In this document: positions 31,460 through 48,514 of the stretch, piece after piece | How positions within the stretch are numbered: the stretch's first letter is position 1 | Layout of the letters: every line of letters starts with the position of its first letter | Origin: Flavobacterium nackdongense | GTDB taxonomy: Bacteria; Bacteroidota; Bacteroidia; Flavobacteriales; Flavobacteriaceae | Direction: 5' to 3' | Assembly: GCF_004355225.1 (NCBI RefSeq) | Contig: NZ_CP037933.1 | Location: forward strand, 186,001 to 250,000 | DNA: 64,000 nucleotides | Notes under the pieces: generated by a model | The model's input: the letters and a program-made list of their open reading frames with translations, nothing else | Databases searched by the model: none | Told to the model about the DNA's origin: nothing | Program-made: the position numbers and the translations under genes

Positions 31460-31938
31460 AGCTTCGGTTTTTTAGACATTTCTTGGGCTGCAGTGGCAAT
31501 AGCATCTAAAATGCGATTGTAGGAACCGCATCGGCATAAATTTTCTTCCATACCGTTGATGATTTCGGTGCGACTCGGTTTTGGATTTCGCAATAATAAG
31601 CCGTAAGCATTCATAATCATCCCCGGCGTACAGAAACCACATTGCATCGAATCGTGCGTGATAAAGGCTTTTTGAATAGGGTGTAGGCTGCCATTTTCAC
31701 TCATCCCTTCAATCGAGATAATCGCTGCTCCAGCCACATCTTCCACAGCAACCATGCACGACCGTATCGCTTTGTTATCAATCAAAACGGTACAGGCACC
31801 GCATTCTCCCTGCCCACATCCGAATTTAGTACCTGTTAAATCCAAATATTCTCTGAGTACGGTCAATAGCGAATCCGTTCCGTTTGCCGTCACGGTGACC
31901 GTTTCTCGGTTTAGCGTAAAACTTATTTTTTGTTTCAT
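31456..31938 (-). CDS. [2Fe-2S] small subunit of the molybdenum hydroxylase
   Basis: A 160-residue iron-sulfur subunit that carries electrons away from the molybdenum site. The N-terminal plant-type ferredoxin cluster motif is GCGQGECGACTVLIDN followed by Cys in IRSC; the C-terminal all-helical cluster is QCGFCTPGMIM and CRCGSY. Both clusters are complete, and length and order match CoxS/IorA proteins. It is the first gene of the two-gene operon and overlaps the large-subunit start by four bases. It lacks a signal of its own and would be carried out with the Tat-like large subunit, as proposed for this family. Confidence 0.94.
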   Translation of the reverse strand: MKQKISFTLNRETVTVTANGTDSLLTVLREYLDLTGTKFGCGQGECGACTVLIDNKAIRSCMVAVEDVAGAAIISIEGMSENGSLHPIQKAFITHDSMQCGFCTPGMIMNAYGLLLRNPKPSRTEIINGMEENLCRCGSYNRILDAIATAAQEMSKKPKL

Positions 31939-32585
31939 TTTTTATGTTTTTTACCCTTGGGTGAAATTCATTTTTTACAATGCCATTAAAAAAAGTAAAA
32001 CCAATTGACGTTTTTTTTGAATAGTAGCACAGTTAATGACCTACTTTAAATATTGATGTAGTTATTTTAGAAAAAGTAGTATCTATTTTGTCTTCCTAAT
32101 TTTTGCAAACCAGTGAAGTACTTTTGATTTTTTGTATGTATTCTTCAACCTAAGAAAGATAAAATCGAAATTTTGTCGGTGGTCAAAAAGACGGTTCTTT
32201 ATGCTGGTTCCTTTTGCTATCTGCTGTTGTATTTGCGATGCTGCTGAGGCAGAAAGACCTGTTGTAACTTGTATAGCTAATAGTCGATTTTTTCTGTTTA
32301 GTTTATTTTGACTACTAAACAAATATATGAAAAAAAGTGAAAATTATAAACGAATCTTTTATTCAAAAATAATTTTTGATGAAGTGATAAGAAGTAGGGA
32401 ACACATTGAGAGGTTCCCTGATTTTTCGCAGGATCTTTAGAGTTCATTAGCTAAAATTCTAATGAAAGTTTATAAAGGATGATGAAATTGCAAATCAACG
32501 ACGGAAAGTATTTAAAATACAGACAGACTCCATTGCAAAATCGCTAGAGTTTTGATCAGAAAATAAATGCAATCGCTCGAGTATT
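31939..32585. other. Intergenic stretch, no gene supported
   Basis: This 647-base gap lies between the start of the molybdenum hydroxylase operon and the 3' end of the PUL 2 regulator, both on the minus strand. It contains a 79-codon open frame (32083-32322, minus) rich in Lys/Arg/Gln that I do not recognise and do not trust. It also holds a 7-bp hairpin, AGGGAAC/GTTCCCT (32396-32419), which could end the regulator transcript. Confidence 0.6.
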
Positions 32586-35102
32586 TTATTCAATAATATC
32601 CTTGAAGGCGACATTGAATTTGGCGTCTAACAAAGTCAAATACTCTTTGCAAAAATCGTCATACGATTGTTTTGCCAAACCTTTTTTGCCCAAAGCATAT
32701 AAGGATTTACACTTGATGATTATCGCTTCTTCGTTGAGCGGATCGTATTTAAGGATGGTATTGGCAATCAACTCTAGTAAGCTTAAGTTTTTATGATTGG
32801 TCGACAAAAAGTCCAAGCCGTCAATAATACGATTGGATACTTCAACTTTGAAAGGTTCAATCCACTCGTTTTGGACATCAGGACAAATTTCACCTGCCGA
32901 AATAATATTCAAAAATTCAACAATTTTATCTTCTTCGTTGCCTTCTTTTTTGATGTGTGCCAACATTTTGTTCACATACTGATAATCGCAGAATGTATTT
33001 TCGCCAAATTGGATGTTCCAATAGGTGTTTTCGTGATTCAATTCGACATCGCCAATTTTTTCGAGCAATAATTTAAGTTTGCTGATGTTCACGTTTTTAT
33101 TGTTACGTGCGCTATTCTCGGATTTATCGTACCATAAATTTTCGATTACTTTGTGCGAAGTGATGCCTTTTTCGTTTTTGGATTTAGACATCAGAATCAA
33201 TAAGAAAAGCTGTTTTAGGGTAGGGGTAAACTGAGAAGTAATGTCCTTGCCTTCTTTATCAAAAACTTCAAAACCTCCGAACAAATAGATGGCTGATTTT
33301 TTAATTTTGTTGTAAGCTGCGGGTTCATAATGTTCGTCGAATGCGGTTGATGCAGCCAGAGGTTCACGGCTAACGGTGGTTGTGGATTCTTTTTTGGGTT
33401 TTCTTTGCAGAAATAATACAATCAAAGCCAGAATAATCAGCACCAAAAGAATGGCGTAAAGGTAGGTTGTCCAAGGGGTTGCTTCTTTTTGAAACACGTC
33501 GGATTCAAGCATCGGCGGATACACCAAGGAATACATATTGACCGTCCCTTCATTGGCAGTAATGGCGCAAAGTTTGCTGCTATTAGCATCCAAAAATAAG
33601 TTGCCATTCGATTTAATATCGAGAAATTTATACGGAATCACATCAGGAAATACCGTGATGTCAAATTTATTAATACCAATTCGTGCCAGTTTTAAAGTGG
33701 TATTGAAGGTATTGTTGTCGTAAAGTAAAGAATAGAAATGATTGGATTGGGCATCGATAACCATTGAACCGACGGGTACAAATGGCGCTTGATCTAAATT
33801 GGCTCTTTCCCAGAGTTTACGGGTTTTGAAACCGTTAAAATCAACAGTATAAAGGTCATAATAGCAGTGGCTATTGACCGCCTGACTTCCTGATTTGCTG
33901 CCGTAGCCACCAAATATTAAGAATTTATCTTTGTTTAGGATTCCTGCCGAGCTTAAATACCTGGGATTGATAGTAGAATTGCCCTCAACTGACTGCCAAA
34001 CTTCATTTTTGGGATGAATTTTTTTGAAACTGTTTTTGTATTTGTAATGGCCATAACCGCCAAAGGTAATCAGGCTGCCGTCTTGCGGAGAAATCAACTT
34101 ATTGTGGTGCCAAAAATTAGGTTCGACACAATAGTTTTCGTTGCTTGACCAACTAAGGCTGTTGAAACTAAATTTGGAAATTAAATTTTTATCAAAGGAA
34201 TACGACCAGATTTCGTTGGTTTTTTCGTTATAAATAAAATTATTTCCCTGACACGGAAAAGGCTTGTTTTTGTACCGTAGCGTGTCTAACTGTTGCGTTT
34301 TCAGATCGTAGGTATACACTGCTTTTTGGTCTATGAAGTAGACGAGACCTCGTTTTTCATTTGGAGCAATTCCCAGTAAGTTACTGAATCGCAATTGCTT
34401 AGCATTTTTCCAATACAAATGTTGATCTAAATGCCAAATTGGATTTAGAGTGGTGGCGAGGTCATTTTTAATTTCGTCATATACGCTGTTGTTTTTCAGG
34501 TGTTTGCCTAAAATCCAATTTCGAACAAGGGATTCCTCTTCGTATAAGCGGATGTGTTTGATACTCATTGGACTCACATCGGTGGTCACAAAATTTTTCA
34601 AATTGCTTTTACCGAAAACGATTTCGTAATCTTTCACTTCAGTCAAATCTTTGACTTTTTTTGTGATAATATGCCCATTTATCGACAAGGATATCGAGGA
34701 ATTGAGGGCATCCACCTCGATTTTGAATTTCATCCATTTTTCGATACCGCCTTGAGGAATTTCTTTCCATTGAAAGGTAGATAAAATAGCGTTGTTGACC
34801 ACCAATGTAAATACCGGATTCGATCCGCCTTCAAAATTGGAAATCAGGTCGATGTTATAGTTTTTGTTGCCTAAAATTTTAAAGATATTACCATAGTAAC
34901 CGTCTGTGGGATGAAAGCTAGCTTCAAATTCCATCGCAAATCCATTGCTGAATCCAAAGGGTGTGGTAGGTGTTAGGTTAAGTGAGGTTCGCTTATCTTT
35001 ATTTACTTTGTTTGATGAAAAAAGCAAGCCATTGTATGGGTTATCTTGAGCATAACCTAAACAAATCAAAAATGTAAAGAGGACAAGTAAAATTTTTTTC
35101 AT
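32586..35102 (-). CDS. Transmembrane one-component regulator: LamG/Kelch-like sensor, one TM helix, winged-helix plus BTAD-like domain
   Basis: An 838-residue protein with an unusual layout. A signal peptide ends near GYAQDN. Residues about 25-195 resemble a laminin-G/concanavalin-like sandwich (GFAMEFEASFHPTDG, WMKFKIEVDALNSSISLSINGH). Residues about 235-540 contain Kelch-like repeats (LITFGGYGHY, FLIFGGYGSKS). One membrane helix lies at about 547-567, followed by RKPKK as the cytoplasmic anchor. Residues about 600-700 look like an OmpR/SARP-type winged helix (YLFGGFEVFDKEGKDITSQF, then NNKNVNISKLKLLLEKIG), and 705-838 is helical like a bacterial transcriptional activation domain. There is no kinase or receiver. 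It is divergent from susC of PUL 2 across 1.2 kb, so it probably senses glycan in the periplasm and directly controls that locus. The architecture is seen; the role is inferred. Confidence 0.8.
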   Translation of the reverse strand: MKKILLVLFTFLICLGYAQDNPYNGLLFSSNKVNKDKRTSLNLTPTTPFGFSNGFAMEFEASFHPTDGYYGNIFKILGNKNYNIDLISNFEGGSNPVFTLVVNNAILSTFQWKEIPQGGIEKWMKFKIEVDALNSSISLSINGHIITKKVKDLTEVKDYEIVFGKSNLKNFVTTDVSPMSIKHIRLYEEESLVRNWILGKHLKNNSVYDEIKNDLATTLNPIWHLDQHLYWKNAKQLRFSNLLGIAPNEKRGLVYFIDQKAVYTYDLKTQQLDTLRYKNKPFPCQGNNFIYNEKTNEIWSYSFDKNLISKFSFNSLSWSSNENYCVEPNFWHHNKLISPQDGSLITFGGYGHYKYKNSFKKIHPKNEVWQSVEGNSTINPRYLSSAGILNKDKFLIFGGYGSKSGSQAVNSHCYYDLYTVDFNGFKTRKLWERANLDQAPFVPVGSMVIDAQSNHFYSLLYDNNTFNTTLKLARIGINKFDITVFPDVIPYKFLDIKSNGNLFLDANSSKLCAITANEGTVNMYSLVYPPMLESDVFQKEATPWTTYLYAILLVLIILALIVLFLQRKPKKESTTTVSREPLAASTAFDEHYEPAAYNKIKKSAIYLFGGFEVFDKEGKDITSQFTPTLKQLFLLILMSKSKNEKGITSHKVIENLWYDKSENSARNNKNVNISKLKLLLEKIGDVELNHENTYWNIQFGENTFCDYQYVNKMLAHIKKEGNEEDKIVEFLNIISAGEICPDVQNEWIEPFKVEVSNRIIDGLDFLSTNHKNLSLLELIANTILKYDPLNEEAIIIKCKSLYALGKKGLAKQSYDDFCKEYLTLLDAKFNVAFKDIIE

Positions 35103-35442
35103 TTAGTCGATTTGGATTGTGCTGTACTGCCTTCTATAAAATAACGTAATTATTTAAAAAACTTGAAAATGTATAAAAAAAAAGAGTGTTATCAATTAGC
35201 GCTGTTTTTTTTGCGAATATAATTCATTTTTTAAATTATATCGATATATTAAAATATTTTTCAATCAAATGTTGGTGCATTTGCCTTTAAATTTCACCTT
35301 GTATTTAACTCTAAATCAATAGATTTCAAAATCACCAAAATAAATATAGATATACCTATATATTACACTTCATTTTTTCGTTTTTTTTCGTGTAGTTTAC
35401 GCTTTTAAATGGGCTTATTTTGTTTTTATTTAGCTGCCATAA

Positions 35443-35610
35443 TTAGAGTTTTCCGAACCTGAGCAGGCGAAAATGCAAAATACTCTGCCATAGGTCTTTG
35501 CTGATTTTTGCAAGTTTAGGCTCGCGCGGAATTCTAGTAGAATAGATTGGTTTGGGATCGAAATGGAAGTTCAAAAATAGTGCTAATTCAGATTTTGGTA
35601 CTAAAATCAT
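35443..35610 (-). CDS. Possible 55-residue protein or gene remnant
   Basis: An ATG-to-TAA frame of 55 codons on the minus strand. Its composition looks coding: PKSELALFLNFHFDPKPIY, then STRIPREPKLAKISKDLWQ and SILHFRLLRFGKL, with balanced charged, aromatic and proline residues and less A/T-driven Lys/Asn/Ile bias than random AT-rich DNA. I do not recognise the sequence and see no clear ribosome-binding site. It could be a small gene, or the surviving 3' end of a decayed gene. Its local G+C looks higher than the flanks. Confidence 0.35.
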   Translation of the reverse strand: MILVPKSELALFLNFHFDPKPIYSTRIPREPKLAKISKDLWQSILHFRLLRFGKL

Positions 35611-36098
35611 AAGGTTTTAAAAATTAGTAGTACGATTATTTATAAATATTCAGTTCTGAACTATTGGATTAAGAAAAATGAGTCTGAAAAAAGGTGAATT
35701 TTCACAGGAGCTCAAGAAACTCTTAAAAAAGTGTTCTACTGGGTGTGTGGTGATAATAAATTTGAAATTAATGTAAACCACATAGAAAAGTAGTCGAAAT
35801 TGTTAAAAAAGATTGACATAGAAAATTCTTTTTACACATAATAATATGAATACTATGCAAAAGCGAAGCTTTCTACAAATAGAATCTATATTCTAATAGC
35901 TATGGAAGCATAATATATACTATAGGGTAAAAAAAACTCCGCAACGTTTCCGCTTAAACCTATAAAAGTAATGTTTTGTGTTTCGTACAGATTTTACGAT
36001 AGTAGAAAAACGTTATTTTTTTGAAATGTAAAAATAGGGGTAGTTTCAAGTGTTAAAATTGATTAAATAATGTTTTTTTTGGTGTTTTTTTTAGAAAA

Positions 36099-36177
36099 GA
36101 TACAAATTAATAAAATATTAATAGATTTTTTATTGATTATTATTCCAATATTAAGCTAGCAGATTGAAATTTGTATC
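36099..36177. promoter_or_regulatory. Inverted repeat upstream of susC, candidate operator
   Basis: GATACAAATT (36099-36108) and AATTTGTATC (36168-36177) are exact reverse complements 59 bases apart, 145-223 bases before the PUL 2 susC start. Between them lies the smaller TTAATA-AAA-TATTAA palindrome. The position suits a regulator site for the divergent membrane regulator, but the assignment is inference. Confidence 0.4.
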
Positions 36178-36321
36178 ATTAATAATTGAAATCACGTATT
36201 GCAAAGAAAATCCTTTTAACAAAATTAACATTAATAATATGAACTAAAAAATAGCAAAGAGGGGCTGCCTCAAGAACAACAAATCCAAATTATAAACTAA
36301 TCACATTTTGAATTTAAATTT

Positions 36322-39300
36322 ATGAAAAAGACAATCAACCAAAACCAAGAGTTTGCAACGATAAAATGGTTAGCCACCGTCTTTAGTTTGCTACTCTTAC
36401 TTAGTTTAACCAATTTATCGGCACAGACTAAAGGCGCAACCAGCCGCAAAATAGTAGGAACTGTGCTCGACGAGGCCAATGTACCTATACCAGGGGTTTC
36501 TGTTTTGGTAAAAAACACCACCAAAGCCACTACTACAGATTTTGACGGTAAATATGAAATCACCGTTCCTACAAATGTAAGCATCTTGCAATTTAGTAGT
36601 ATTGGTTTTTTGAAACAGGAAAAAGACATTTCAGGAAAGTCAGTGGTCAATGTAACCTTAACACTCGAAACGAAGAGTTTGTCTGAAGTAGTGGTTGTTG
36701 GGTATGGAAAGCAAAAGAAAGAAACCTTGACGGGGGCCGTTTCGAATATTACAACAGCTGCAATTCAAACCACAACGAGTGCGAGTATGGCTCAGAAATT
36801 ACAAGGAAAAGTAGCGGGACTTAACATTCGTCAAAATTCTGGGCAACCGGGGGTATTTGACAATTCGATCAATATTAGAGGATTTGGTTCTCCAATGTAT
36901 ATTATTGACGGGGTCCGCAGAGGGGATGGTAGCGAATTTCAACGTTTGAATGCAAACGATATCGAAAGTATTTCGGTCCTGAAAGATGCTTCGGCTGCGA
37001 TTTATGGTTTAGGTGCTGCCAATGGAGTTATTTTGGTAACTACCAAAAAAGGAAAAAAAGGAAAACCAGTTTTCGAATACAGTTCGGTTACAGGATTTAT
37101 TTCACCAACCGACATTCCTAGAATGGCCAATGCGGGCCAATATGCTGAATTGTTCAATGACACTCAAATCAACAGAGTAATTGGTGGTGTCCCTTTCTAC
37201 ACCCAAGAGCAAATTGATAAATATGTAAATGAGGTTCCAGGTTTTGAAAGTACCGATTGGTATGATGTTGCCATCAAGAAAACCGCTATGCAAACACAAC
37301 ATAATCTTTCGGCTTCAGGAGCGTCAGACGATGTGAGTTATTTTATAGGTCTTGGTTATGTAAATGAGGAAGGATTGCTTAAAAGCAATGACATGGGGTA
37401 TCAACGTTATAACCTACGATCAAATTTAACCGCCAAACTGACTAAAAATGTTGAGGCTCAACTTTTAATCGGAGGACGCTATGATAATAGAACCCAACCA
37501 GGAGATAGTTTTTTCAATATTTTCAAAGGTACTCGTTCCAGTGTTCCAACCGATAGACCTTACGCAAACAATAATCCACTTTATCCAAGCATTGTTTTGC
37601 CTGGTAATCAAAATCCAATGGTGTTAGCCGATAGAGATATTACAGGATATGTAGATGAGGTAACTAGAAACTTACAAACCTCACTTTCTTTGGACTACCA
37701 TTTTCCTTTCCTGAAAGGAATGTCTTTGAAAGGGATGGCTTCATATGATGCCAATAATTTTGAATCCAATAATTTATCAAAGTCTTACACTTTATATAGT
37801 TATGATCAAGTTTTAGGTATTTATAAACCGGTAATTATGCGTAATGGTACTGGTAATATTTCCTACAGAACCACTAATAGTAACAGTCTTAGTTTACAAG
37901 GCTTTTTGACTTATAAGCCTGATTTAGGCGAGAATCACAATCTAAGTGCTGTAGGTGTCATTGAATCAAATCAAGGCAATGGGCAATTTGTATCCATCAA
38001 AAAATTATATGCAACGGTTTATACCAAAGATGAAATTCGTTACGGAGATGCACTCAATCAGGAAACTGATGGACTTCGCTCTGAATCTGCCGATTTGTCT
38101 TATCTTGGTCGTGTAAATTATGATTTTAAAGGGAAGTATTTATTAGAATTGGCCGGACGCTACATGGGCTCTTACCGATATTCACCAGAAAACAGATGGG
38201 GTTTTTATCCTATGGGATCTGTGGGCTGGATAGTTTCAAAAGAAAATTTCCTAAAAAATAATGTAAGTGTAATGTCTAATTTGAAATTACGTGCTTCTTA
38301 TGGTACCACGGCGCAACCTGCCGGAAATGCCTTTCAGTACATAGATGGGTACACCATTGGATCTGGAGGTTCTTGGGAGTTTTCTAATGATTTGATTACC
38401 AATGGGGTTTCGACTCCAGTGCCTGCCAATCCAAACCTGACTTGGCAAACTGCCACCACTACCGATTTTGGTATCGATTTGGGATTCTGGCAAAACAAGT
38501 TCACTTTTACAGCGGATGTCTTTGATCGTTTGGTCGAAGGTATTCCAGCCAACTTAAGTGTGGGTCTTCCTAATACTTACGGTGGAACATTGCCGCAAGA
38601 AAACTTAAATAGCAATCGTACCCAGGGTTTTGAGTTCGAAATTGGTTACAAAAACCATGGTCGAGCTTTCAAATATGATGTTTCGGGCAATTTTACCTAT
38701 TCTCGTACCAAAAATTTACACCGCGAAGGAGAAGCATTCAACAACAGTATGCAACGCTACACCAATCAAAAAGGATACAGATGGAATGACCTTCAATGGG
38801 CCTACACTTACGATGGCTATTATCAAAATGAGCAAGAAATTCTGAATGGTGCCTTGCAAAACGGTGCTACTGGAAATATCAACCGTGAACTTCCTGGTGA
38901 TTTTAAATACGAAGATATCAACAACGACGGTATCATCGATGGGCAAGATCAAAAACCTCTTTTTTATAATTCAGCGCCAAAAATGTTTTTTGGTATGACC
39001 ATGAATGCTGCTTTCAAAGGTTTTGATATTAATGTTTTATTCCAAGGTGCGGCTCAATACACCGTACGATATACAGGCGTTTATGGCCAAGTGATGGCAT
39101 TCAATGGTAATTTACCTGATTATTTCTATGACAGATGGCATAAAGCTGATCAATTTGATCCTACTAGCGAATGGATTCCAGGGAAATGGCCTGCTACAAG
39201 ACTTATTGCCGATGTAGGAGGAATGTACAAAGAAAGTTCTGTTTGGAGAAAAGATGCAAGTTATGTAAGGCTAAAAAATATCGAAATTGGGTATACTTTC

Positions 39301-39510
39301 GAGGGTGATCAACCCTTCATGAAACAAATTGGTATCAAATCTTTACGATTTTATGCTAGTGGTTTTAACTTATATACTTTTTGTGATCCTTTCGTAAAAG
39401 CTTTTGATCCTGAAAAAACAGTAACTACAGATGATGGAGATCAAGAAGGAGAAGGCTTTACCTATCCGCTGACTACCACTTACAATTTCGGACTTAATAT
39501 TAGTTTCTAA
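36322..39510 (+). CDS. SusC-like TonB-dependent outer-membrane receptor
   Basis: A complete 1062-residue SusC. A long N-terminus with signal peptide ends near NLSAQTKG. The carboxypeptidase-regulatory-like domain follows (KIVGTVLDEANVPIPGVSV ... TDFDGKYEITV, about 45-120), then the TonB-box-like linker SEVVVVGYGKQKKETLTGAV, the plug with IRGFGSPMYIIDGVRRGD and ESISVLKDASAAIYGLGAANGVILVTTKKGK, and the beta-barrel ending in LNISF. It imports oligosaccharides with the SusD encoded 16 bases downstream. The linked GH71/99-like and GH92 genes suggest alpha-mannosides as cargo. It is the first gene of PUL 2, divergent from the membrane regulator. Confidence 0.97.
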   Translation: MKKTINQNQEFATIKWLATVFSLLLLLSLTNLSAQTKGATSRKIVGTVLDEANVPIPGVSVLVKNTTKATTTDFDGKYEITVPTNVSILQFSSIGFLKQEKDISGKSVVNVTLTLETKSLSEVVVVGYGKQKKETLTGAVSNITTAAIQTTTSASMAQKLQGKVAGLNIRQNSGQPGVFDNSINIRGFGSPMYIIDGVRRGDGSEFQRLNANDIESISVLKDASAAIYGLGAANGVILVTTKKGKKGKPVFEYSSVTGFISPTDIPRMANAGQYAELFNDTQINRVIGGVPFYTQEQIDKYVNEVPGFESTDWYDVAIKKTAMQTQHNLSASGASDDVSYFIGLGYVNEEGLLKSNDMGYQRYNLRSNLTAKLTKNVEAQLLIGGRYDNRTQPGDSFFNIFKGTRSSVPTDRPYANNNPLYPSIVLPGNQNPMVLADRDITGYVDEVTRNLQTSLSLDYHFPFLKGMSLKGMASYDANNFESNNLSKSYTLYSYDQVLGIYKPVIMRNGTGNISYRTTNSNSLSLQGFLTYKPDLGENHNLSAVGVIESNQGNGQFVSIKKLYATVYTKDEIRYGDALNQETDGLRSESADLSYLGRVNYDFKGKYLLELAGRYMGSYRYSPENRWGFYPMGSVGWIVSKENFLKNNVSVMSNLKLRASYGTTAQPAGNAFQYIDGYTIGSGGSWEFSNDLITNGVSTPVPANPNLTWQTATTTDFGIDLGFWQNKFTFTADVFDRLVEGIPANLSVGLPNTYGGTLPQENLNSNRTQGFEFEIGYKNHGRAFKYDVSGNFTYSRTKNLHREGEAFNNSMQRYTNQKGYRWNDLQWAYTYDGYYQNEQEILNGALQNGATGNINRELPGDFKYEDINNDGIIDGQDQKPLFYNSAPKMFFGMTMNAAFKGFDINVLFQGAAQYTVRYTGVYGQVMAFNGNLPDYFYDRWHKADQFDPTSEWIPGKWPATRLIADVGGMYKESSVWRKDASYVRLKNIEIGYTFEGDQPFMKQIGIKSLRFYASGFNLYTFCDPFVKAFDPEKTVTTDDGDQEGEGFTYPLTTTYNFGLNISF

Positions 39511-39526
39511 TTTAAATTAAAAGAAA

Positions 39527-41419
39527 ATGAAAACATTTAAAAAAACATACTTCCTGCTGCTTTTTGCCTTAGTTTTTGTAGGATGCGAGAATTCACTTGA
39601 TTTGGAACCAAGAGATAAGTTGACTGCAGAAGAAATATTTGCAACGCCAGCCAGCACCAATCTTTATTTGGCCGATCTCTATAATCGCCTTCCTATCGAA
39701 GACTTGACTTTTTTTCCAAACCAAGGATTCAATTACAATGGCTCTAATCCAAATAATAATGGGATTTGTGAAGAGATGTTTACTGGTATTGCCTCACATT
39801 CCAACGTGAATGCCCCTGGCTTTATCAATGGTGATAAATTCAAATGGTGGTCAGAAGCGTATACCTTGATTCGAGATATCAATTTGTTTATGGAAATTGT
39901 ACCAACCCTAAATATTTCTCAGCAACAAAAAGACCTTTATTTAGGTGAGGCTTCCTTTCTTAGGGCTTTTGCTTATTATGGATTGGTGATACGCCACGGC
40001 GGTGTTCCAATCATCAAAACGCCGCAAGTGTATAACGGCGATTCGGAAGCACTAAAAGTACCAAGAAATACAGAGAAAGAAACTTGGGATTTTGTACTTT
40101 CAGAATGTGATGCCGCTATCAAAGTGTTGGATATTGACCCAAATAAAAGAAAAGCCTCTAAATGGGCAGCTTATGCCTTAAAATCAAGAGCGGCTCTTTT
40201 CGCTGCTTCTATTGCAAAGTTTGGTCCTAAAAATCCGATGTCAGGTCCTGCTTATGATGCCAAATTAGTAGGTTTAGATCCTGCCGATGCAGCGGGCTAC
40301 TATCAAATATGTATTGATGCATCTAATGCCATTATGGATTCTAACAAATTTTCGTTGTACAAACCATTGCCAGCCACTCCAGAAGAAGCAACCGAAAATT
40401 ATAGGTCGATGTTCGAAAACCCAAACCTTGCGTTAAATACTGAAGCAATATTGGTAAAAGGACGTACTCTTATCGGAAATAATTATGGTAATAACTATGA
40501 TATTTGGTATAGCCCAAATCAATTGAAAAACGGTTGGCCAAGTCCAGGAAGGATGAATCCCACCCTAGAATTTATTGATTTGTACGAAAGCTATGCCAAT
40601 CCAGGTGTAAGTTCACCGATTCTAACCGCTACTGGAGATGACATCAATAATTATAATGGTTTTAATAAATTGAAACCCTACTTCAAGTATTCAAATCCAC
40701 AAGATATTTTTGCAGGAAAAGATGCTCGTATGTTTGCCACAGTTATTGTACCAGGTTCTAAATTTAAAGATGTTACCATCAATATTCAGGGTGGTTTGGT
40801 AAATCCGGCAGGTTCATTAGTACTAACCGGAAGTGCAAAAGTAGGTACTACTGAGTATTTTGTGTTCGGTGATTCAAATGCATTGAATTACTCTGGATTT
40901 GCGCCAATTGCATCCGATCATACTAAGACTGGATTCTCATTCAAAAAGTTTTTGAAGACTACACCTACCATCAATGGTTGGAATTCAAGTACTACCGATT
41001 ATATGGATATGAGATACGCCGAAGTGCTGTTGAATTATGCCGAAGCCGTCGTCGAAAGTGGTTTAGGTGATGTTACCAAAGCGACAGCCGCACTAAATGC
41101 GACTAGAAGAAGAGCCGCTTTTATGACTGCCATTCCATTGACTGTTACCAATGTGCAAAGAGAAAGAACTGTGGAAATGGCTTTCGAACACAAAAAATAC
41201 TGGGACTTGATTCGTAGAAGAGAATACCACGAAAAGTTTAATAACGTGAAACAAAAAGCTTTAAGACCTTTGCTTGATTTAAGAGGAACTGCTCCGTATA
41301 AATATATTTTTGTAAGAGAGAATCTGAATATGAATCCACAATTGTTCTTGACCAAATATTACTATAAAGATATTCCAGGAACGGCGCTTAACGGATTAAT
41401 TCAAAATCCACAATACTAA
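39527..41419 (+). CDS. SusD/RagB-family nutrient-binding lipoprotein
   Basis: A 630-residue surface lipoprotein partnering the preceding SusC. The signal peptide MKTFKKTYFLLLFALVFVGC puts the lipidated Cys at residue 20. Family features are SLDLEPRDKLTAEEIF, LGEASFLRAFAYYGLVIRHGGVP, MRYAEVLLNYAEAVVESG and RERTVEMAFEHKKYWDLIRRREY. The 16-base gap from susC indicates co-transcription. The sequence does not show the exact ligand; PUL context suggests a mannose-rich glycan. Confidence 0.96.
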   Translation: MKTFKKTYFLLLFALVFVGCENSLDLEPRDKLTAEEIFATPASTNLYLADLYNRLPIEDLTFFPNQGFNYNGSNPNNNGICEEMFTGIASHSNVNAPGFINGDKFKWWSEAYTLIRDINLFMEIVPTLNISQQQKDLYLGEASFLRAFAYYGLVIRHGGVPIIKTPQVYNGDSEALKVPRNTEKETWDFVLSECDAAIKVLDIDPNKRKASKWAAYALKSRAALFAASIAKFGPKNPMSGPAYDAKLVGLDPADAAGYYQICIDASNAIMDSNKFSLYKPLPATPEEATENYRSMFENPNLALNTEAILVKGRTLIGNNYGNNYDIWYSPNQLKNGWPSPGRMNPTLEFIDLYESYANPGVSSPILTATGDDINNYNGFNKLKPYFKYSNPQDIFAGKDARMFATVIVPGSKFKDVTINIQGGLVNPAGSLVLTGSAKVGTTEYFVFGDSNALNYSGFAPIASDHTKTGFSFKKFLKTTPTINGWNSSTTDYMDMRYAEVLLNYAEAVVESGLGDVTKATAALNATRRRAAFMTAIPLTVTNVQRERTVEMAFEHKKYWDLIRRREYHEKFNNVKQKALRPLLDLRGTAPYKYIFVRENLNMNPQLFLTKYYYKDIPGTALNGLIQNPQY

Positions 41420-41457
41420 ACCAATAAAAAGATTAACCCAATAAAGAATTTAATATT

Positions 41458-42147
41458 ATGGATAAATATATAAGAATTTTTATATTAACAATTTTCGTAG
41501 GCGTTTTGAGTTCTTGCGAAATGGATAATTTAGACGAACCAACTGCTGGTTTATATGGTAAAATTATCGACGAGAAAGATGGGACACTAGTACCTCAAGA
41601 TATTATTCAAGGTTCGGTTATAGAACTTCGGGAAGCAGGTTATGCCAATGTAGCTCCGCAGAACTTGGTTATCAAAAATAATGGCACATACGAAAATAGC
41701 CGTCTTTTTGAAAACATGTACACTGTTCAACCAGTGCGAACTAATTTTCAGTTAGTTGCTCCACAAGAAGTAAAGATTGCAGGTAGAACGATGCTTGATT
41801 TTACAGTAAAACCATACATACGAATTTTGGAGCCAAAAATAGAAAAAGTGGGAACTAAGATTGTGGCAACATTCAAGTTAGAACAAACGACAGCTGATTT
41901 GGTCAAGAAAATAGGGCTGTATTCGCACAGAGATCCCAACGTAGGCGAATTTATGCAAACCTCTAGAACCGAAGTTACTTTGAATGCTTTGGCTGTTCCT
42001 GACCAAATTTATACCGTCGAACTAGAAACCGCCGGTAATGCTAATATTATTGTTGGTAGGACGTATTATTTCAGAATAGGTGCTTTGACAGCTGCTCCTG
42101 AAACAAAGTCCAACTACGCACCGCAAGTAGTTTCGTTTACTTTCTAA
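41458..42147 (+). CDS. DUF3823 lipoprotein, likely surface glycan-binding accessory
   Basis: A 229-residue lipoprotein with lipobox LSSC (lipidated Cys20) and the DUF3823 pattern: ENPT-like start DEPTAGLYGKIIDEKDGTLVP, GSVIELREAGYA, IKNNGTYENSRLFENMYTV, and a second beta-domain from about residue 120 (IEKVGTKIVATFKL). DUF3823 proteins are almost always encoded right after susCD in Bacteroidota and are taken as surface-binding accessories. The gap to susD is 38 bases. No enzymatic residues are visible. Confidence 0.88.
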   Translation: MDKYIRIFILTIFVGVLSSCEMDNLDEPTAGLYGKIIDEKDGTLVPQDIIQGSVIELREAGYANVAPQNLVIKNNGTYENSRLFENMYTVQPVRTNFQLVAPQEVKIAGRTMLDFTVKPYIRILEPKIEKVGTKIVATFKLEQTTADLVKKIGLYSHRDPNVGEFMQTSRTEVTLNALAVPDQIYTVELETAGNANIIVGRTYYFRIGALTAAPETKSNYAPQVVSFTF

Positions 42148-42181
42148 GTTCTTTTGTTCCTTTCTTTTTTTCTAAAAAGCC

Positions 42182-42213
42182 TAATCCGCTTCAGGGATTA
42201 AAGAAAGGATTTT
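42182..42213 (+). terminator. Weak terminator after the DUF3823 gene
   Basis: The arms TAATCC and GGATTA form a 6-bp stem, and a run of eight Ts follows about 9 bases later (AAGAAAGGATTTTTTTTAC). It could partly separate the susCD-DUF3823 transcript from the enzyme genes. Confidence 0.4.
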
Positions 42214-42375
42214 TTTTACTTTATTTTGATTACAGACGATATGAAACCTTTATAATTTATAGAGGATGGTCTTTTTGTTGGAATATTTTAGGGCTTTTAA
42301 ATCCATCCTAAAGTTTTTTTGAGACAATAATTCGACAATAGAAATTTCCTTTTTTAAAGTGATAAATACCTTTCA

Positions 42376-43689
42376 ATGAGACTAAATCGGCTTTCTATAG
42401 TGGTGATGCTTCCCTTGTTTGCTTTTTCCATACTAAAGGATCATGTTTCAGTACCAGCAATACTTGATAATTCGTCGAAAGATACCATTTATGACGAATC
42501 GGGTTGCCTGTACAAATCCTACGATAGGCTCGTGATGGCGGGCTACCAAGGATGGTTTGCCGCCCAGAGCGATGCCTCTCAAAGAGGCTGGTATCATTAC
42601 AAAGGCAGTTGTGGTTTTGGTCCCGGCTGTTCTTGTATTGATTTTTGGCCCGATATGAGGGAATATATCCAACAGTACGAAACACCTTTTTCTTTTGCCA
42701 ACGGTGACAAAGCTTCGCTATATAGTCCTTATGATGCCTCGACGGTCGATTTGCATTTCAAATGGATGAAGGATTACGGCATCGATGGCGTGCACATGCA
42801 ACGATTTGTTGTTGAAATCAACGGATCGAAGTTGAATGGGAAAAGACATTTTAATAAAGTGCTCGAAAATGCGCTTAAAGCTGCTGCAAAATATGACAGA
42901 GCGATTAGTATAATGTACGATTTAAGCGGCTGCAAAAAAGAAGATATCGCCTTTGTGGCTGAAGATTTTAAAGAATTGCAAAAGCAGTTTGATTTATTTA
43001 ACAATAGTAAAAATCCAACCTATTTGCGACACAACGGAAAGCCGATGGTCAGTATTTGGGGGGTGGGTTTCAATGACAAACGAAAATACAGCATTGCCGA
43101 CATCGATGCTTTAGTGACTAAGTTGAAAGGTCCTAACAATAGAGTATCCGTATTATTGGGTGTTCCTTATTATTGGAGAACATTGGTAAAAGACACTCAA
43201 ACTAATCCGGAATTGCACACACTCATAAAAAAATGTGATATGATAATGCCTTGGGCTGTGGGCAGGTATAAAATAGACAGTTATAATCCCGCTGTCCTTG
43301 CAGAGGATATCCAATGGACCAAGGCCAATGGGGTCGATTATGTTCCTTTAGTTTTTCCGGGATTTTCTTGGGGAAATTTAAAAAAAGATGTTTCACAATA
43401 CAATTCGACTCCTAGGTTAAAAGGGGATTTTTTATGGAAACAAATTGCGGGAGCAAAGCAAGGCGGAGCGCAAGCATTGTATGTGGCAATGTTTGATGAA
43501 GTAGATGAAGGCACTGCGATATTCAAAGTGTTGAATCAGAAAAATGTCCCATTAAACGGGACTCAAGAAAAAAAATTCGTAGGTATCGAAGACGATTTAC
43601 CAACCGATTATTATTTATGGCTCACAGGACAAGGGGCAAAATGGTTTCATAACGAAGGAAATTATAGTGCAACCAAACCCGAGCGATAG
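42376..43689 (+). CDS. GH71/99-like glycosidase (endo-alpha-mannosidase-like)
   Basis: A 437-residue predicted exported barrel enzyme with an N-terminal hydrophobic segment (LSIVVMLPLFAFSIL). GH99-type features are LVMAGYQGWFAAQSDASQRGWYHY, the aromatic-rich FWPDMREY, FKWMKDYGIDGVHMQRF, YDLSGCKKEDI and the C-terminal MFDEVDEGTAIFK. The two Glu in the last segment (375 and 378) have the same three-residue spacing as the catalytic pair in characterised GH99 endomannosidases. GH99 enzymes cut inside alpha-mannosyl chains at alpha-1,2 linkages. Between a SusCD system and two GH92 exo-mannosidases it would make the first internal cut. The broad family is clear; exact specificity is not. Confidence 0.82.
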   Translation: MRLNRLSIVVMLPLFAFSILKDHVSVPAILDNSSKDTIYDESGCLYKSYDRLVMAGYQGWFAAQSDASQRGWYHYKGSCGFGPGCSCIDFWPDMREYIQQYETPFSFANGDKASLYSPYDASTVDLHFKWMKDYGIDGVHMQRFVVEINGSKLNGKRHFNKVLENALKAAAKYDRAISIMYDLSGCKKEDIAFVAEDFKELQKQFDLFNNSKNPTYLRHNGKPMVSIWGVGFNDKRKYSIADIDALVTKLKGPNNRVSVLLGVPYYWRTLVKDTQTNPELHTLIKKCDMIMPWAVGRYKIDSYNPAVLAEDIQWTKANGVDYVPLVFPGFSWGNLKKDVSQYNSTPRLKGDFLWKQIAGAKQGGAQALYVAMFDEVDEGTAIFKVLNQKNVPLNGTQEKKFVGIEDDLPTDYYLWLTGQGAKWFHNEGNYSATKPER

Positions 43690-43962: not shown

Positions 43963-46254
43963 ATGAAAATCAATTTCAAGAAAAATGTATTAGCGGCGAC
44001 CTTTGCAGTTTTTTCAATTTGCAACGCGCAGCAAAATCCCAAAGCATCAGAAGTGCAAAATCCTGTAGACTATGTAAATCCGTACATGGGAAACATCAGC
44101 CATCTTTTGGTGCCGACCTATCCCACCATTCATTTGCCCAATAGTTTTTTGCGCGTTTATCCAGAGCGTCGCGATTATACCAGTGTTAAGTTGAATGGTC
44201 TTCCTATGGTGGTAACGAGTCATCGCGGGAGTTCAGCTTTTAATCTGAGTCCTTTTCAAGGAAATGAAAAAAACATAAAACCTGTAATTGATTACTGTTA
44301 TGATCAGGAAAAATTGACGCCTTATTCCTATGGCGTTTATTTAGACGAGCAGCAAATTATGGTCAATTTTGGTTTGTCCCACCAATCGGCTTGCTATGAT
44401 TTGCAATTTTCAAAAGAAGAAGCGGTTTACTTAATTCTCAATTCTAAAAATGGAGAAATGAATTGGAACGGTACAGCGATTAGTGGTTTTCAACTATTGG
44501 AAAATGACACAAAGGTATATTTGTATTTAATTCCTGAAAAACTGCCGCAGACTGTTTTAAATGCAGCCGCAGGCCTCTTGAAAGAAGCAAAAACTGCTCA
44601 GGGTGCCAATGCCAATTTAGTGCTGAAATATGCTACTGGCTTGAAAAAATTGAATGTAAAATATGGAATTTCTTTTATCGATGTCAATCAAGCAAAACGC
44701 AATTTGGAGCGTGAAATAAATTCTAAAACTGTTGCTCAATTGCAACAAGAGGGACGTAAAATCTGGAACGAATCTTTGGGGAAAATAAAAATTTCGGGTG
44801 GAGACTATAACGAAAAGACCGTGTTCTACACCTCGCTTTACCGCTGCTTCGAGCGATCGGTTTGCGTTTCTGAAGACGGACGTTACTATAGTGCTTTCGA
44901 TAAAAAAATTCACCAAGACAAAGGTCGAAATTTTTACACCGACGATTGGATTTGGGATTCCTACCGTGCACATCATCCACTACGCGCTTTGATAGAGCCC
45001 AAAAAAGAAGAAGATGTTCTGAATTCTTTTGTGCTAATGGCGGAACAGATGGATCGTTTATGGATGCCCACCTTTCCCGAAATTACAGGTGACAGCCGCA
45101 GGATGAATTCCAATCACGGAGTAGCCTCGATTATTGACGCGTACCGAAAAGGACTTCGAAATTTTGATTTTGCCAAAGCGTATCAAGCGTGCAAAGGCGG
45201 AATAGAAGAAAAAACATTGGCACCTTGGTCGGGAAAACCTGCTGGAGAATTAGAAGTATTTTATAAAAACAAGGGATATTACCCTGCCTTAGAAGTGGGG
45301 CTAGAGGAAACCGTTCCCGAAGTACATCCTTTTGAAAGCCGTCAGCCTGTGGCAGTTACCTTGGGAACCTCTTATGATGAGTGGTGTTTGTCCCAAATAG
45401 CCGAGGAATTAGGCAAGAAAGAGGAAGCGGATTATTTCAGAAAAGCTTCTTTTAATTACCGTAATTTATTCAATTCCGAAACCAAATTCTTTCACCCCAA
45501 AGACAAAAATGGAAAATTCATAGAACCGTTTGATTATATTTCTTCGGGCGGAATGGGAGCAAGAAAATATTTTGGCGAAAATAATGGCTGGATTTATCGT
45601 TGGGACGTGCAACACAACATTCCTGATTTGATCAATTTGATGGGAGGCAATGAGGAGTTTGTCAAAAATCTAGACGAGATGTTTACCAAATCATTAGGAA
45701 AAAGCAAATTCGAATTCTATGCGCAATTACCTGATCACACCGGAAATGTAGGGCAATTTTCTATGGCAAATGAACCTTCTCTTCATATTCCTTATTTGTA
45801 TAATTATGCCGGTCAGCCTTGGAAAACACAAAAATACATCCGCAAACTTTTGAGCGAATGGTTCCGTAATGATTTGATGGGTGTACCGGGCGATGAAGAC
45901 GGCGGCGGATTATCGGCCTTTGTAGTATTTTCTCAACTCGGATTTTATCCAGTGACACCGGGCGTTCCTGTATATTCTATAGGTAGCCCCGTCTTTGAAT
46001 CTTCTAGTGTGCAATTCGAAAATGGAAAAGCCTTCAAAGTAGTGGCTAAAAATTATGCGCCGGAAAACAAATACATTCAATCGGCGACATTAAATGGTCA
46101 GGAATGGAATAATCCTTGGTTTTCGCACGAAGCTATCAAAGACGGAGGTGTTTTAGAATTAACAATGGGAAATCTCCCCAATACACTGTGGGGAAACACA
46201 CCGCTTTTTTATAACCAATATGCAATAAGTTCAGTAGTACCTTCAAAACAATAA
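43963..46254 (+). CDS. GH92-family glycosidase, divergent subgroup (first of tandem pair)
   Basis: A 763-residue exported enzyme with a signal peptide ending near CNAQQN. Overall GH92 architecture is retained: VNPYMGN at the start, NNGWIYRWDVQHNIPDLINLMGG, MANEPSLHIPYLYNYAGQPWKT and GDEDGGGLSAFVVFSQLGFYPVTPG near the C-terminus. The canonical N-terminal motif GTGGHGHTFPGA is replaced by HLLVPTYPTIHLPNSFLRVYP, and the Cys-Gln of the usual E-D-C-G-Q motif by Gly-Gly, so the sugar-binding end is remodelled. The Glu before NNGW, the presumed acid position, is kept. It probably acts on alpha-mannosides, but linkage or decoration may differ from classical GH92. It is 46 bases from its paralogue downstream. 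Confidence 0.88.
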   Translation: MKINFKKNVLAATFAVFSICNAQQNPKASEVQNPVDYVNPYMGNISHLLVPTYPTIHLPNSFLRVYPERRDYTSVKLNGLPMVVTSHRGSSAFNLSPFQGNEKNIKPVIDYCYDQEKLTPYSYGVYLDEQQIMVNFGLSHQSACYDLQFSKEEAVYLILNSKNGEMNWNGTAISGFQLLENDTKVYLYLIPEKLPQTVLNAAAGLLKEAKTAQGANANLVLKYATGLKKLNVKYGISFIDVNQAKRNLEREINSKTVAQLQQEGRKIWNESLGKIKISGGDYNEKTVFYTSLYRCFERSVCVSEDGRYYSAFDKKIHQDKGRNFYTDDWIWDSYRAHHPLRALIEPKKEEDVLNSFVLMAEQMDRLWMPTFPEITGDSRRMNSNHGVASIIDAYRKGLRNFDFAKAYQACKGGIEEKTLAPWSGKPAGELEVFYKNKGYYPALEVGLEETVPEVHPFESRQPVAVTLGTSYDEWCLSQIAEELGKKEEADYFRKASFNYRNLFNSETKFFHPKDKNGKFIEPFDYISSGGMGARKYFGENNGWIYRWDVQHNIPDLINLMGGNEEFVKNLDEMFTKSLGKSKFEFYAQLPDHTGNVGQFSMANEPSLHIPYLYNYAGQPWKTQKYIRKLLSEWFRNDLMGVPGDEDGGGLSAFVVFSQLGFYPVTPGVPVYSIGSPVFESSSVQFENGKAFKVVAKNYAPENKYIQSATLNGQEWNNPWFSHEAIKDGGVLELTMGNLPNTLWGNTPLFYNQYAISSVVPSKQ

Positions 46255-46300: not shown

Positions 46301-48514
46301 TTGAAATACAAGATTCTATTTGTTTTTTTTGTATTCTTCGGTCTATTCAATTCTTGTAAATCGGAATACCAGTACGACGATGCGCTACGGTTTATCGATC
46401 CGCAAATTGGCGGGGTGGCGCCGCTATTGAAGCCCACCAAAACAAGAATGCATATTCCCAATGCGATGGTGAGAGTCAATCCGGAACGAAAGGATTATCG
46501 CGACGATCAAATCCGGTCTTTTCCGCTTACGGCCTACAATCATCGAGGTGACGGTATTTTTAATTTTTTACCTGTTTCGGGCAATTTACCTCTTAACAAA
46601 GAGCCCATTTCGGCTTGGGATCAGGAATTAGAGCAAGCTTCACCGTTTTATTACTCCACTTGGCTCGAAGATTTTGATATTACACTAGAATATGCTCCCG
46701 GAGAAAAAGCAGGTTTTTATCGATTCAATTATAAAAATGCAAAAGACAAAAAAGTATTCCTCAAAGATTTGAACGGTACCGATTGGCAGTTGAATGCCGA
46801 AGGGGATTTGGTTGGCGACTTGGTGTTCAAAGAAATGAAAGCTTACGCCTACGTTAAATTAGATGTACCTGCCACCTTAAGTCAAGTAAAAGTTAGTCCA
46901 CAGGGGGTTAATACTTGGCTAACTTGGGCAGATGCTTCACCGCAACAAATTAATATGAAATACGGAATTTCTTATATTAGTTTGGAGCAAGCCAAGCGAA
47001 ATTTATCAAATGAAATTCCCGATTGGGATTTCGAAAAAGTTAAAGCGAATGCCCGTAAGCAATGGCAAAATTTGACCAATTTGATTCAGGTCGAAGGAGG
47101 AACGGAGGCTAATAAACGTTCCTTTTACACCGCTTTATATCGTAGTTCCGAACGAATGGTCAACATCAGCGAAGAACAAAAATATTATAGCAGTTATGAT
47201 AAAAAAGTGCATACAGATTCCAAGAATTTTTATGTAGATGATGCTATTTGGGACACCTTTTTGGCGGTGCATCCACTTCGAACTATTTTTAATCCACAAA
47301 TGGAATCGGATATGATTTCGTCCTACGTTCGAATGTTCGAACAATGGGGCTGGATGCCGCAATTTCCGCAAGTGCACGGCGAGACCGTCCCGATGAATGG
47401 ATTCCATTCGACCATTATGGTATTGGATGCTTACCGAAAAGGGCTGAAAAACATAGATTACGAAAAGGCCTATGAGGGTATGAAAAAGAATGCTTTACAG
47501 CAAACAATGGTGCCTTGGCGTTCGGATGTCGCTTGCGAATTAGATCAGTTTTATGCCGAGAAAGGGTACTTTCCCGCCTTGCGTCCGGGCGAAGTTGAAA
47601 CGGTTCCATTGGTACATCCTTTCGAGAAAAGACAAGCTGTCGCGGTAACCTTGGCGCACAGTTATGATGATTGGGCTTTGGCTCAGATGGCATTAGAATT
47701 AGGCAAAAAAGAAGATTATCAGTATTTCTTGGCAAGAGCTACAAATTACAAAAACTTGTATTGGAAAGAAAAAGGATTCTTTATGCCAAAAGATAAAGAT
47801 GGAAACTGGATCGATATCGACCCTAAATTCGACGGTGGAATGGGAGGTCGTGATTATTACGATGAAAATAACGGTTGGACTTATTTGTGGAACGTACAAC
47901 AAGACATTCCTGGTCTTCAAAAATTAATGGGAGGTAAAACGGTGTTCAAAGATAGATTGGATCAGCTTTTTAGAGAAGATTTAGGAAGAAGTAATTATGA
48001 ATTGTATGCCAAATTTCCTGATTTTACAGGCATTGTAGGGCAATTTTCTATGGGAAACCAACCGAGCTTTCATATTCCTTATTTGTACAATTTTACAGAC
48101 TCCCCTTGGAAAACCCAAAAAAAAATTAGGATGCTTTTAAACACTTGGTTCAAAGACAATATTTTTGGAATGCCTGGTGATGAAGATGGTGGCGCTACAT
48201 CCGCTTTTGTGGTTTTCTCAGCTATGGGTTTTTATCCTATTACCCCCGGACTGCCTATTTACACTATCGGTAGCCCTTGGTTCACCAAATCAACCTTGCA
48301 ACTTCCTGAGGGTAAAAAATTCATTATTTCGGCTCCAAAGTGCTCCGAAACCAACAAATACATTCAAAGCGCCAAATTGAACGGAAAAACTTTAGATGGA
48401 CCTTGGTTTACCCATAATGATATTGTCAAGGGTGGAATTTTAGAACTAGAAATGGGAGCGTATCCCAATAAAGAATGGGGGAGCGATCCGAAAAGTATTC
48501 CAGCAATTTTTTGA
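46301..48514 (+). CDS. GH92-family glycosidase lipoprotein, divergent subgroup (second of tandem pair), TTG start
   Basis: A 737-residue lipoprotein. No ATG fits: the signal peptide (KYKILFVFFVFFGLFNSC, lipidated Cys19) is only complete from the TTG at 46301, so a TTG start is likely. It shares the subgroup features of the preceding gene: FIDPQIGGVAPLLKPTKTRM and IPNAMVRVNPERKDYRDD at the N-terminus, DENNGWTYLWNVQQDIPGLQ, MGNQPSFHIPYLYNFTDSPWKT and GDEDGGATSAFVVFSAMGFYPITPG. The two genes thus look like a tandem duplication with split localisation: one soluble, one lipid-anchored. Expected substrate is an alpha-mannoside trimmed from the non-reducing end. A strong terminator follows. Confidence 0.88.
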   Translation: MKYKILFVFFVFFGLFNSCKSEYQYDDALRFIDPQIGGVAPLLKPTKTRMHIPNAMVRVNPERKDYRDDQIRSFPLTAYNHRGDGIFNFLPVSGNLPLNKEPISAWDQELEQASPFYYSTWLEDFDITLEYAPGEKAGFYRFNYKNAKDKKVFLKDLNGTDWQLNAEGDLVGDLVFKEMKAYAYVKLDVPATLSQVKVSPQGVNTWLTWADASPQQINMKYGISYISLEQAKRNLSNEIPDWDFEKVKANARKQWQNLTNLIQVEGGTEANKRSFYTALYRSSERMVNISEEQKYYSSYDKKVHTDSKNFYVDDAIWDTFLAVHPLRTIFNPQMESDMISSYVRMFEQWGWMPQFPQVHGETVPMNGFHSTIMVLDAYRKGLKNIDYEKAYEGMKKNALQQTMVPWRSDVACELDQFYAEKGYFPALRPGEVETVPLVHPFEKRQAVAVTLAHSYDDWALAQMALELGKKEDYQYFLARATNYKNLYWKEKGFFMPKDKDGNWIDIDPKFDGGMGGRDYYDENNGWTYLWNVQQDIPGLQKLMGGKTVFKDRLDQLFREDLGRSNYELYAKFPDFTGIVGQFSMGNQPSFHIPYLYNFTDSPWKTQKKIRMLLNTWFKDNIFGMPGDEDGGATSAFVVFSAMGFYPITPGLPIYTIGSPWFTKSTLQLPEGKKFIISAPKCSETNKYIQSAKLNGKTLDGPWFTHNDIVKGGILELEMGAYPNKEWGSDPKSIPAIF

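Follow-up and report, generated by a model that had tools for sequence, protein, structure and literature searches.

The control of polysaccharide utilization loci (PULs) in Bacteroides is usually described in terms of SusR-like proteins, hybrid two-component systems, and extracytoplasmic function (ECF) sigma/anti-sigma pairs, and SusR-like regulators are PUL-controlling membrane proteins whose sensor lies outside and whose DNA-binding domain lies inside; their predicted operators comprise two direct sites at a distance of 67 or 77 bp (PMC3878776). SARPs such as AfsR and PimR are soluble antibiotic regulators of actinomycetes with a winged helix and a seven-helix BTA domain, and direct-repeat operators of 11-bp period near the -10 box have been described for them (PMC10936776, PMC5930380); the repeats are given as 11 or 22 bp apart with the last one 8 bp from the -10 box (PMC10936776), and the PimR operator as three heptamers with 4-nt spacers (PMC5930380). 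Here, we describe a regulator gene of Flavobacterium nackdongense, located on a 64,000-nucleotide stretch of contig NZ_CP037933.1 (the window), which together with its relatives forms a probable additional class of PUL regulator with a SusR-like topology and a SARP output.

The regulator shares its membrane topology and PUL linkage with the SusR-like proteins and differs from them in the winged helix-BTAD output and in the repeats found beside the family, which are 11-12 bp apart; on account of this operator spacing the family is not filed under SusR. Hybrid two-component systems and ECF pairs likewise exert glycan-responsive control of PULs, but Pfam and NCBIfam scans of the regulator detected neither histidine kinase and receiver domains nor sigma or anti-sigma domains, and because of its domain content the family was not assigned to these systems either. 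Unlike in AfsR and PimR, the SARP module here forms the C-terminal end of the protein, preceded by an outer sensor and a membrane helix, and is found beside PULs. ToxR and CadC are membrane-bound winged-helix regulators with one helix, an outer sensor, and an N-terminal DNA-binding part without a BTAD. The winged helix studied here is similarly tied to the membrane by a single helix, but it is C-terminal and accompanied by a BTAD. The features of the gene are as follows.

32586..35102, minus strand: regulator gene, 838 aa (open reading frame, family alignment A1, model)
35049..35102, minus strand: signal-peptide-like N-terminus, residues 1-18 (sequence; helix 2-16 in model)
34473..35027, minus strand: all-beta outer domain, possibly LamG-like, residues 26-210 (model: strands only)
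33513..34460, minus strand: Kelch beta-propeller, residues 215-530
33405..33473, minus strand: single membrane helix, residues 544-566, with basic residues after it (sequence, model helix)
33294..33404, minus strand: linker, residues 567-603, mostly low confidence (predicted local distance difference test score, pLDDT, <50 at 568-596)
33003..33293, minus strand: winged helix (OmpR/SARP type), residues 604-700 (model, profile match, Trans_reg_C in 14 of 63 C-termini)
32592..32987, minus strand: seven-helix BTAD-like domain, residues 706-837 (model, profile match, BTAD in 16 of 63 C-termini)

The outer part of the protein was found to have the fold of a Kelch propeller. PDB searches retrieved Kelch chains, both with the window sequence, which gave one weak unrelated chain in addition, and with alignment A1. 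The Foldseek/VIA lists obtained for the full-length model were filled by the propeller, and for this reason no structural match is available for the beta domain or the SARP part. No Pfam or NCBIfam match to the DNA-binding part was obtained from the single sequence. When 63 aligned C-termini were scanned, the commonest Pfam matches were BTAD (PF03704; 16 matches, best E-value 2.4e-4) and Trans_reg_C (PF00486; 14 matches, best 5.5e-4), with E-values up to 1 included and four matches for the third-ranking family. Profile-profile comparison with one canonical SARP gave a probability of 96 (E 4e-9), and hhalign against 16 SARPs gave 96.9 (E 1.3e-10) in an alignment spanning both domains. The model places a winged helix before seven helices, the order reported for AfsR (PMC10936776), and the inner module is well conserved in A1. 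A PDB search with alignment A3 returned mostly tetratricopeptide-type designs, as well as the DNA-binding domain of SaeR at E 0.39. Homology of the inner module to SARPs is thus well supported by profile comparison, and the module likely binds DNA. The initial annotation had read the gene as a signal peptide, LamG-like and Kelch-like modules, one membrane helix, and a winged helix plus BTAD-like region, with no kinase or receiver. A DNA-binding module after the helix is indeed indicated by the model, the Pfam matches in the C-termini, and the profile match, and the Kelch propeller, the single helix, and the absence of kinase and receiver domains were likewise borne out; residues 26-210, the possible LamG-like domain, consist of strands in the full-length model and gave no Pfam match.

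The genomic context of the family was surveyed at 90 places in the fetched loci, each with a regulator-profile score of at least 600 and a length of at least 750 aa. For this set, 48 of 67 places were fetched from family f78 and 24 of 31 from family f41, together with, from Flavobacteriaceae, five full-length members in addition to that of the window and seven that have the C-terminal part alone; relatives that were shorter, split, or limited to the C-terminal part (e.g., L044, L047, L050-L055, L089, and L163-L169) were dropped. Neighbors were annotated with profiles grown from the window proteins, and 33 random 20-kb regions from the same contigs or genomes served as controls. SusC or SusD was encoded within 8.5 kb of 72 of the 90 full-length regulators, compared with 13 of the 33 controls (Fisher 4e-5). 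An alpha-mannan enzyme (glycoside hydrolase (GH) families GH92, GH76, GH125, or GH99-like) was present within the same distance in 55/90 and 2/33, respectively, a comparison that favors the regulator side insofar as the profiles for GH76 (PF03663) and GH125 (PF06824), both recognized in recurrent neighbor clusters, were built from the regulators' own neighbors, while those for GH92 and GH99-like began with window proteins. Taken singly, GH92 was near 28 regulators and one control, GH99-like near 13 and one, and DUF3823 near 27 and none. The controls were drawn from f41 (19), f78 (7), Flavobacteriaceae (6), and G485 (1), whereas 47 of the 90 regulators are from f78, and genome-wide counts were therefore added for 14 f78 genomes; among their 25 regulators, SusD stood beside 17 (5.0 expected) and GH92 beside 12 (1.6 expected). 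Some loci are cut off by a contig end; where 8 kb could be read on both flanks (73/90), SusC/SusD was found in 63 loci and an alpha-mannan enzyme in 49. In 50 of the 90, the gene starting next to the regulator is of a locus type. The members are related to one another; after clustering at 40%, 11 of 23 clusters were mostly alpha-mannan (p 7e-4). All members with at least 41% identity and readable context, that is, the window, Mariniphaga (L001), and L090, have the order SusC-SusD-DUF3823-GH99-like, and SusC-SusD-DUF3823 is present in all eight members of the window's own cluster. In the window, the SusC gene is divergent from the regulator gene across 1219 bp, and the adjoining features are listed below.

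35103..36321, no strand: intergenic region between regulator and SusC, 1219 bp (no Rfam match)
36322..39510, plus strand: SusC-like TonB-dependent receptor (Pfam)
39527..41419, plus strand: SusD-like lipoprotein (Pfam)
41458..42147, plus strand: DUF3823 protein (Pfam)
42376..43689, plus strand: GH99-like protein (PF16317, 19.4 bits, below the cut-off of 33)
43963..46254, plus strand: GH92 enzyme, alpha-mannosidase family (Pfam, NCBIfam TIGR01180)
46301..48514, plus strand: GH92 enzyme, alpha-mannosidase family (Pfam, NCBIfam TIGR01180)

A candidate operator was identified at the family level. When k-mers were counted in the promoters of regulator loci (40 representatives), TTAACC and its complement stood out; direct copies were most often spaced by 12 bp, and direct repeats at 11-12 bp are situated between regulator and locus. 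We counted 30 exact pairs, TTAACC-N6-TTAACC, in the regulator loci (2.02 Mb) and none in the control DNA (660 kb); no copy was farther than 700 bp from a regulator, and 29 of the 30 were intergenic. A scan of 42 genomes, 188 Mb in all, yielded 95 exact pairs; of these, 28 were located no more than 1 kb from a regulator, where 0.14 would be expected, and six of seven triple arrays are at a regulator; eight genomes in which no regulator was found hold 19 exact pairs, none of them in a triple array. An array with at most one mismatch stands beside 39 of the 90 regulators, compared with none of 29 SusC genes lacking a regulator within two genes. Most of these counts were made on the discovery loci, and the cleaner comparison is one in which discovery on f78 alone yielded the same motif: of 19 promoters from other families, 6 contained it without mismatch, the shuffles predicting 0.005, with the six hits stemming from two groups of similar loci, and 10 contained it with at most one mismatch (0.1 expected).

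A WAnnTTTG sequence stands 9 or 10 bp after the final repeat in 14 of 30 arrays, against a mean of 0.24 and a maximum of 2 in shuffles. A looser search for array plus box found 28 matches in regulator loci, of which 27 were intergenic beside a regulator, and two in controls; for both scans, the box pattern and mismatch limits were chosen after the sequences had been seen. The box lies at 21 bp in two further arrays, and near variants are present in several others. We take it to be a -7 box, TAnnTTTG being the -7 element of Bacteroidota. On visual inspection, three units of the TTAA type, spaced at 12 bp, were seen in L130, L132, L134, and L135, and TTTG comes at a similar distance. Inverted GGTTAA copies were also observed upstream of the direct repeats (L040, L095-L099, L114, and others), most commonly at distances of 34 and 48 bp; they may act for the promoter of the regulator itself or accommodate a second dimer. 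At G1372:C1:267473-269164, three identical copies of the repeat pair recur at intervals of exactly 837 bp; they seem to be part of a long tandem repeat and to have no relation to the regulator.

For the window itself, one candidate site was found.

36106..36127, plus strand: block of 22 bp that contains an 11-bp direct repeat of ATTAATA and is the same in Mariniphaga L001; candidate diverged operator

The exact block, ATTAATAAAATATTAATAGATT, is common to the window and Mariniphaga and lies 216 and 230 bp before SusC, respectively; its 22 bp are the longest common substring of the two, compared with a mean of 10.8 and a maximum of 14 in 60 shuffled pairs. There is no TTAACC half-site in the last 350 bp before the window SusC, and L090 has TTAACC/TTAAGT/TTAAGT at 11 bp. 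With modest confidence, we suggest that the block is a diverged form of the operator.

We consider it likely that the protein is a membrane-spanning one-component activator of the divergent PUL, sensing glycan outside and binding the repeats through its SARP part. The computations establish the architecture, the SARP homology of the output, the linkage to SusCD and alpha-mannan loci, and, in part of the family, the repeat array with its fixed distance to a promoter box; the ligand, the transmembrane signaling, the binding of repeat DNA by the regulator, and the activation are inferred, as follows. The secreted N-terminal half (beta domain and Kelch propeller) would sense, in the periplasm, a product of the glycan on which the locus acts, most likely an oligosaccharide that contains alpha-mannose, and ligand binding would rearrange protomers across the single helix. 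The cytoplasmic winged helix and BTAD could then bind tandem TTAA-type half-sites that closely precede the -7 box of the promoter, each 11-12 bp repeat taking up one protomer, and recruit RNA polymerase in the fashion of SARPs. The initial annotation had likewise proposed a sensor joined through one helix to a DNA-binding activator and tied to the PUL, and had named neighboring susCD or glycosidase genes of homologues as a check; such an association was found (SusC/SusD in 72/90, an alpha-mannan enzyme in 55/90), and together with the DNA-binding module and the family-level candidate operator it supports such a switch. The broader proposition is evenly balanced, namely that an added class of PUL regulator extends across several Bacteroidota families, in which transmembrane SARPs read alpha-mannosidic oligosaccharides (others in some clades), assemble as two to three modules, still in the membrane, on tandem TTAACC-type repeats 9-10 bp before a -7 box, and recruit RNA polymerase, the same output module also being used with LamG-type sensors.

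Several results weigh against these proposals. The window genome contains no exact TTAACC pair, the three-unit score of the window intergenic region does not exceed that of its shuffles, and no -7 box was seen at the expected distance from the window repeat. Folding of the C-terminal part alone (two sequences) gave a pLDDT of 47. An alpha-mannan enzyme is missing within reach of 35 of the 90 members and SusC/SusD within reach of 18, so that universality can be claimed for neither the ligand nor the PUL link; 12 members have neither, and among these L039, L042, L046, L048, and L049 belong to genomes in which no SusD was found, while L045, L127, and L137 are near contig ends. Within the window's cluster, four members have GH99-like and four have GH3 instead, which speaks against a single ligand, and in L038 an ECF sigma/anti-sigma-like pair, judged by size and order, stands beside SusCD. 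Genome-wide, the TTAACC pair is not enriched (95 occurrences versus 173 of the reversed pattern), and it is location, not abundance, that sets the repeat pattern apart. Moreover, 51 of the 90 regulators have no array of at most one mismatch beside them, and L203 carries a triple array (~3909-3940; G837:C1:2068909) in a 1.3-kb intergenic gap; the prediction that this distant array lies at another regulator failed, as no regulator gene was present in the 7.5 kb read.

The two last-named results would fit an array used by a different regulator, or one that is a promoter feature local to these loci, with the membrane SARP modulating the locus without binding the array. We regard this as distinctly improbable, given the concentration of exact pairs within 1 kb of regulators, the absence of arrays from the 29 SusC genes without a regulator, and an array layout that matches SARP operators. 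A reading that retains both protein and operator has the signal transmitted by proteolysis: ligand binding would cause the protein to be cut within or next to the membrane helix, and the SARP part would be freed via the linker as a soluble activator. The linker is predicted to be disordered at 568-596 in the model, and regulated proteolysis of membrane-tethered regulators is known in general, but no protease stood out in the neighbor clusters, in which no search was aimed at proteases, and this route seems rather unlikely. That we are dealing with a Kelch enzyme or binding protein of the cell surface or periplasm whose inner domain no longer binds DNA, as the name 'Galactose oxidase' on several relatives might imply, is hardly credible in view of the operator evidence and of an inner module that is well conserved in A1 and has kept its SARP profile match. 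The membrane-spanning activator remains the favored interpretation.

In total, 423 relatives of the regulator were identified among 5.8 billion proteins, and the family is one of Bacteroidota. At E 0.001 or better, counting partial and Kelch-only matches and with just two candidates scored per genome in the larger samples, matches were obtained in 3 of 199 genomes of the genus (two full length including the window, the other being 29% identical), 24 of 259 of the Flavobacteriaceae (six full length or nearly so including the window), 41 of 101 of f78 (up to seven copies), and 19 of 111 of f41, and in 2, 7, and 20 of 395 genomes each in the order, class, and phylum samples. Within the genus, the regulator is thus a rarity. 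The window genome (4.2 Mb, one contig) has a single match to the regulator and 18 SusD matches. Members that match over at least 98% of the query are also present on four Persicobacter plasmid records. Many matches in Flavobacteriaceae are restricted to the membrane helix and SARP part, and the membrane SARP paralogues L052, L053, L055, and L089 share the C-terminal module but differ in having an outer part with LamG (PF13385); one output module is thus joined to several sensors. Paralogue L089 (7192-9870; Parabacteroides distasonis) adjoins genes for a Gfo/Idh/MocA oxidoreductase and a sugar isomerase, SusCD being absent from the region read. Neighboring regulator genes are paired in four loci (L046, L048, L051, and L154), in L051 with a triple array between the two, and the regulator of L047 is split into two separate open reading frames.

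Some relatives are already named SARP activators in the databases, and the SARP label is therefore not new. The literature search returned no account of SARP/BTAD regulators with PULs or in Bacteroidetes, the sole match being a hemicellulase review with all of its hits in the reference list, and no published description of the alpha-mannan locus link, the operator, or the membrane wiring was encountered in the literature searched. A family of one-component membrane SARPs, together with its predicted operator, would account for the way in which many alpha-mannan loci may be controlled and give ligand predictions for proteins currently labeled galactose oxidase or two-component regulators. If true, it would extend SARPs from actinomycete antibiotic clusters to membrane sensing, a membrane helix connecting the SARP with the outside, and supply a compact sensor-to-promoter module open to immediate testing.

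Among the neighbors, a secreted protein family of 711-758 aa occurs in 11 of the 90 regulator loci and none of the 33 controls (e.g., L043:14498-16684); it has no Pfam match and no PDB relative at E <0.1, and is perhaps an unrecognized enzyme. The GH99-like protein of the window also lacks a PDB relative at E <0.1, and no Rfam family matched at 31000-42500. Elsewhere in the window, a second SusC/SusD locus lies upstream (1-20773) with GH92, GH20, GHL10, and DUF4434 genes, two major facilitator superfamily transporters, and a fused glucosamine-6-phosphate isomerase/PIG-L deacetylase, and looks suited to N-glycans. In addition, a classical hybrid two-component regulator with Reg_prop, YYY, HisKA, HATPase, receiver, and HTH_18 domains is encoded at 57756-61862.

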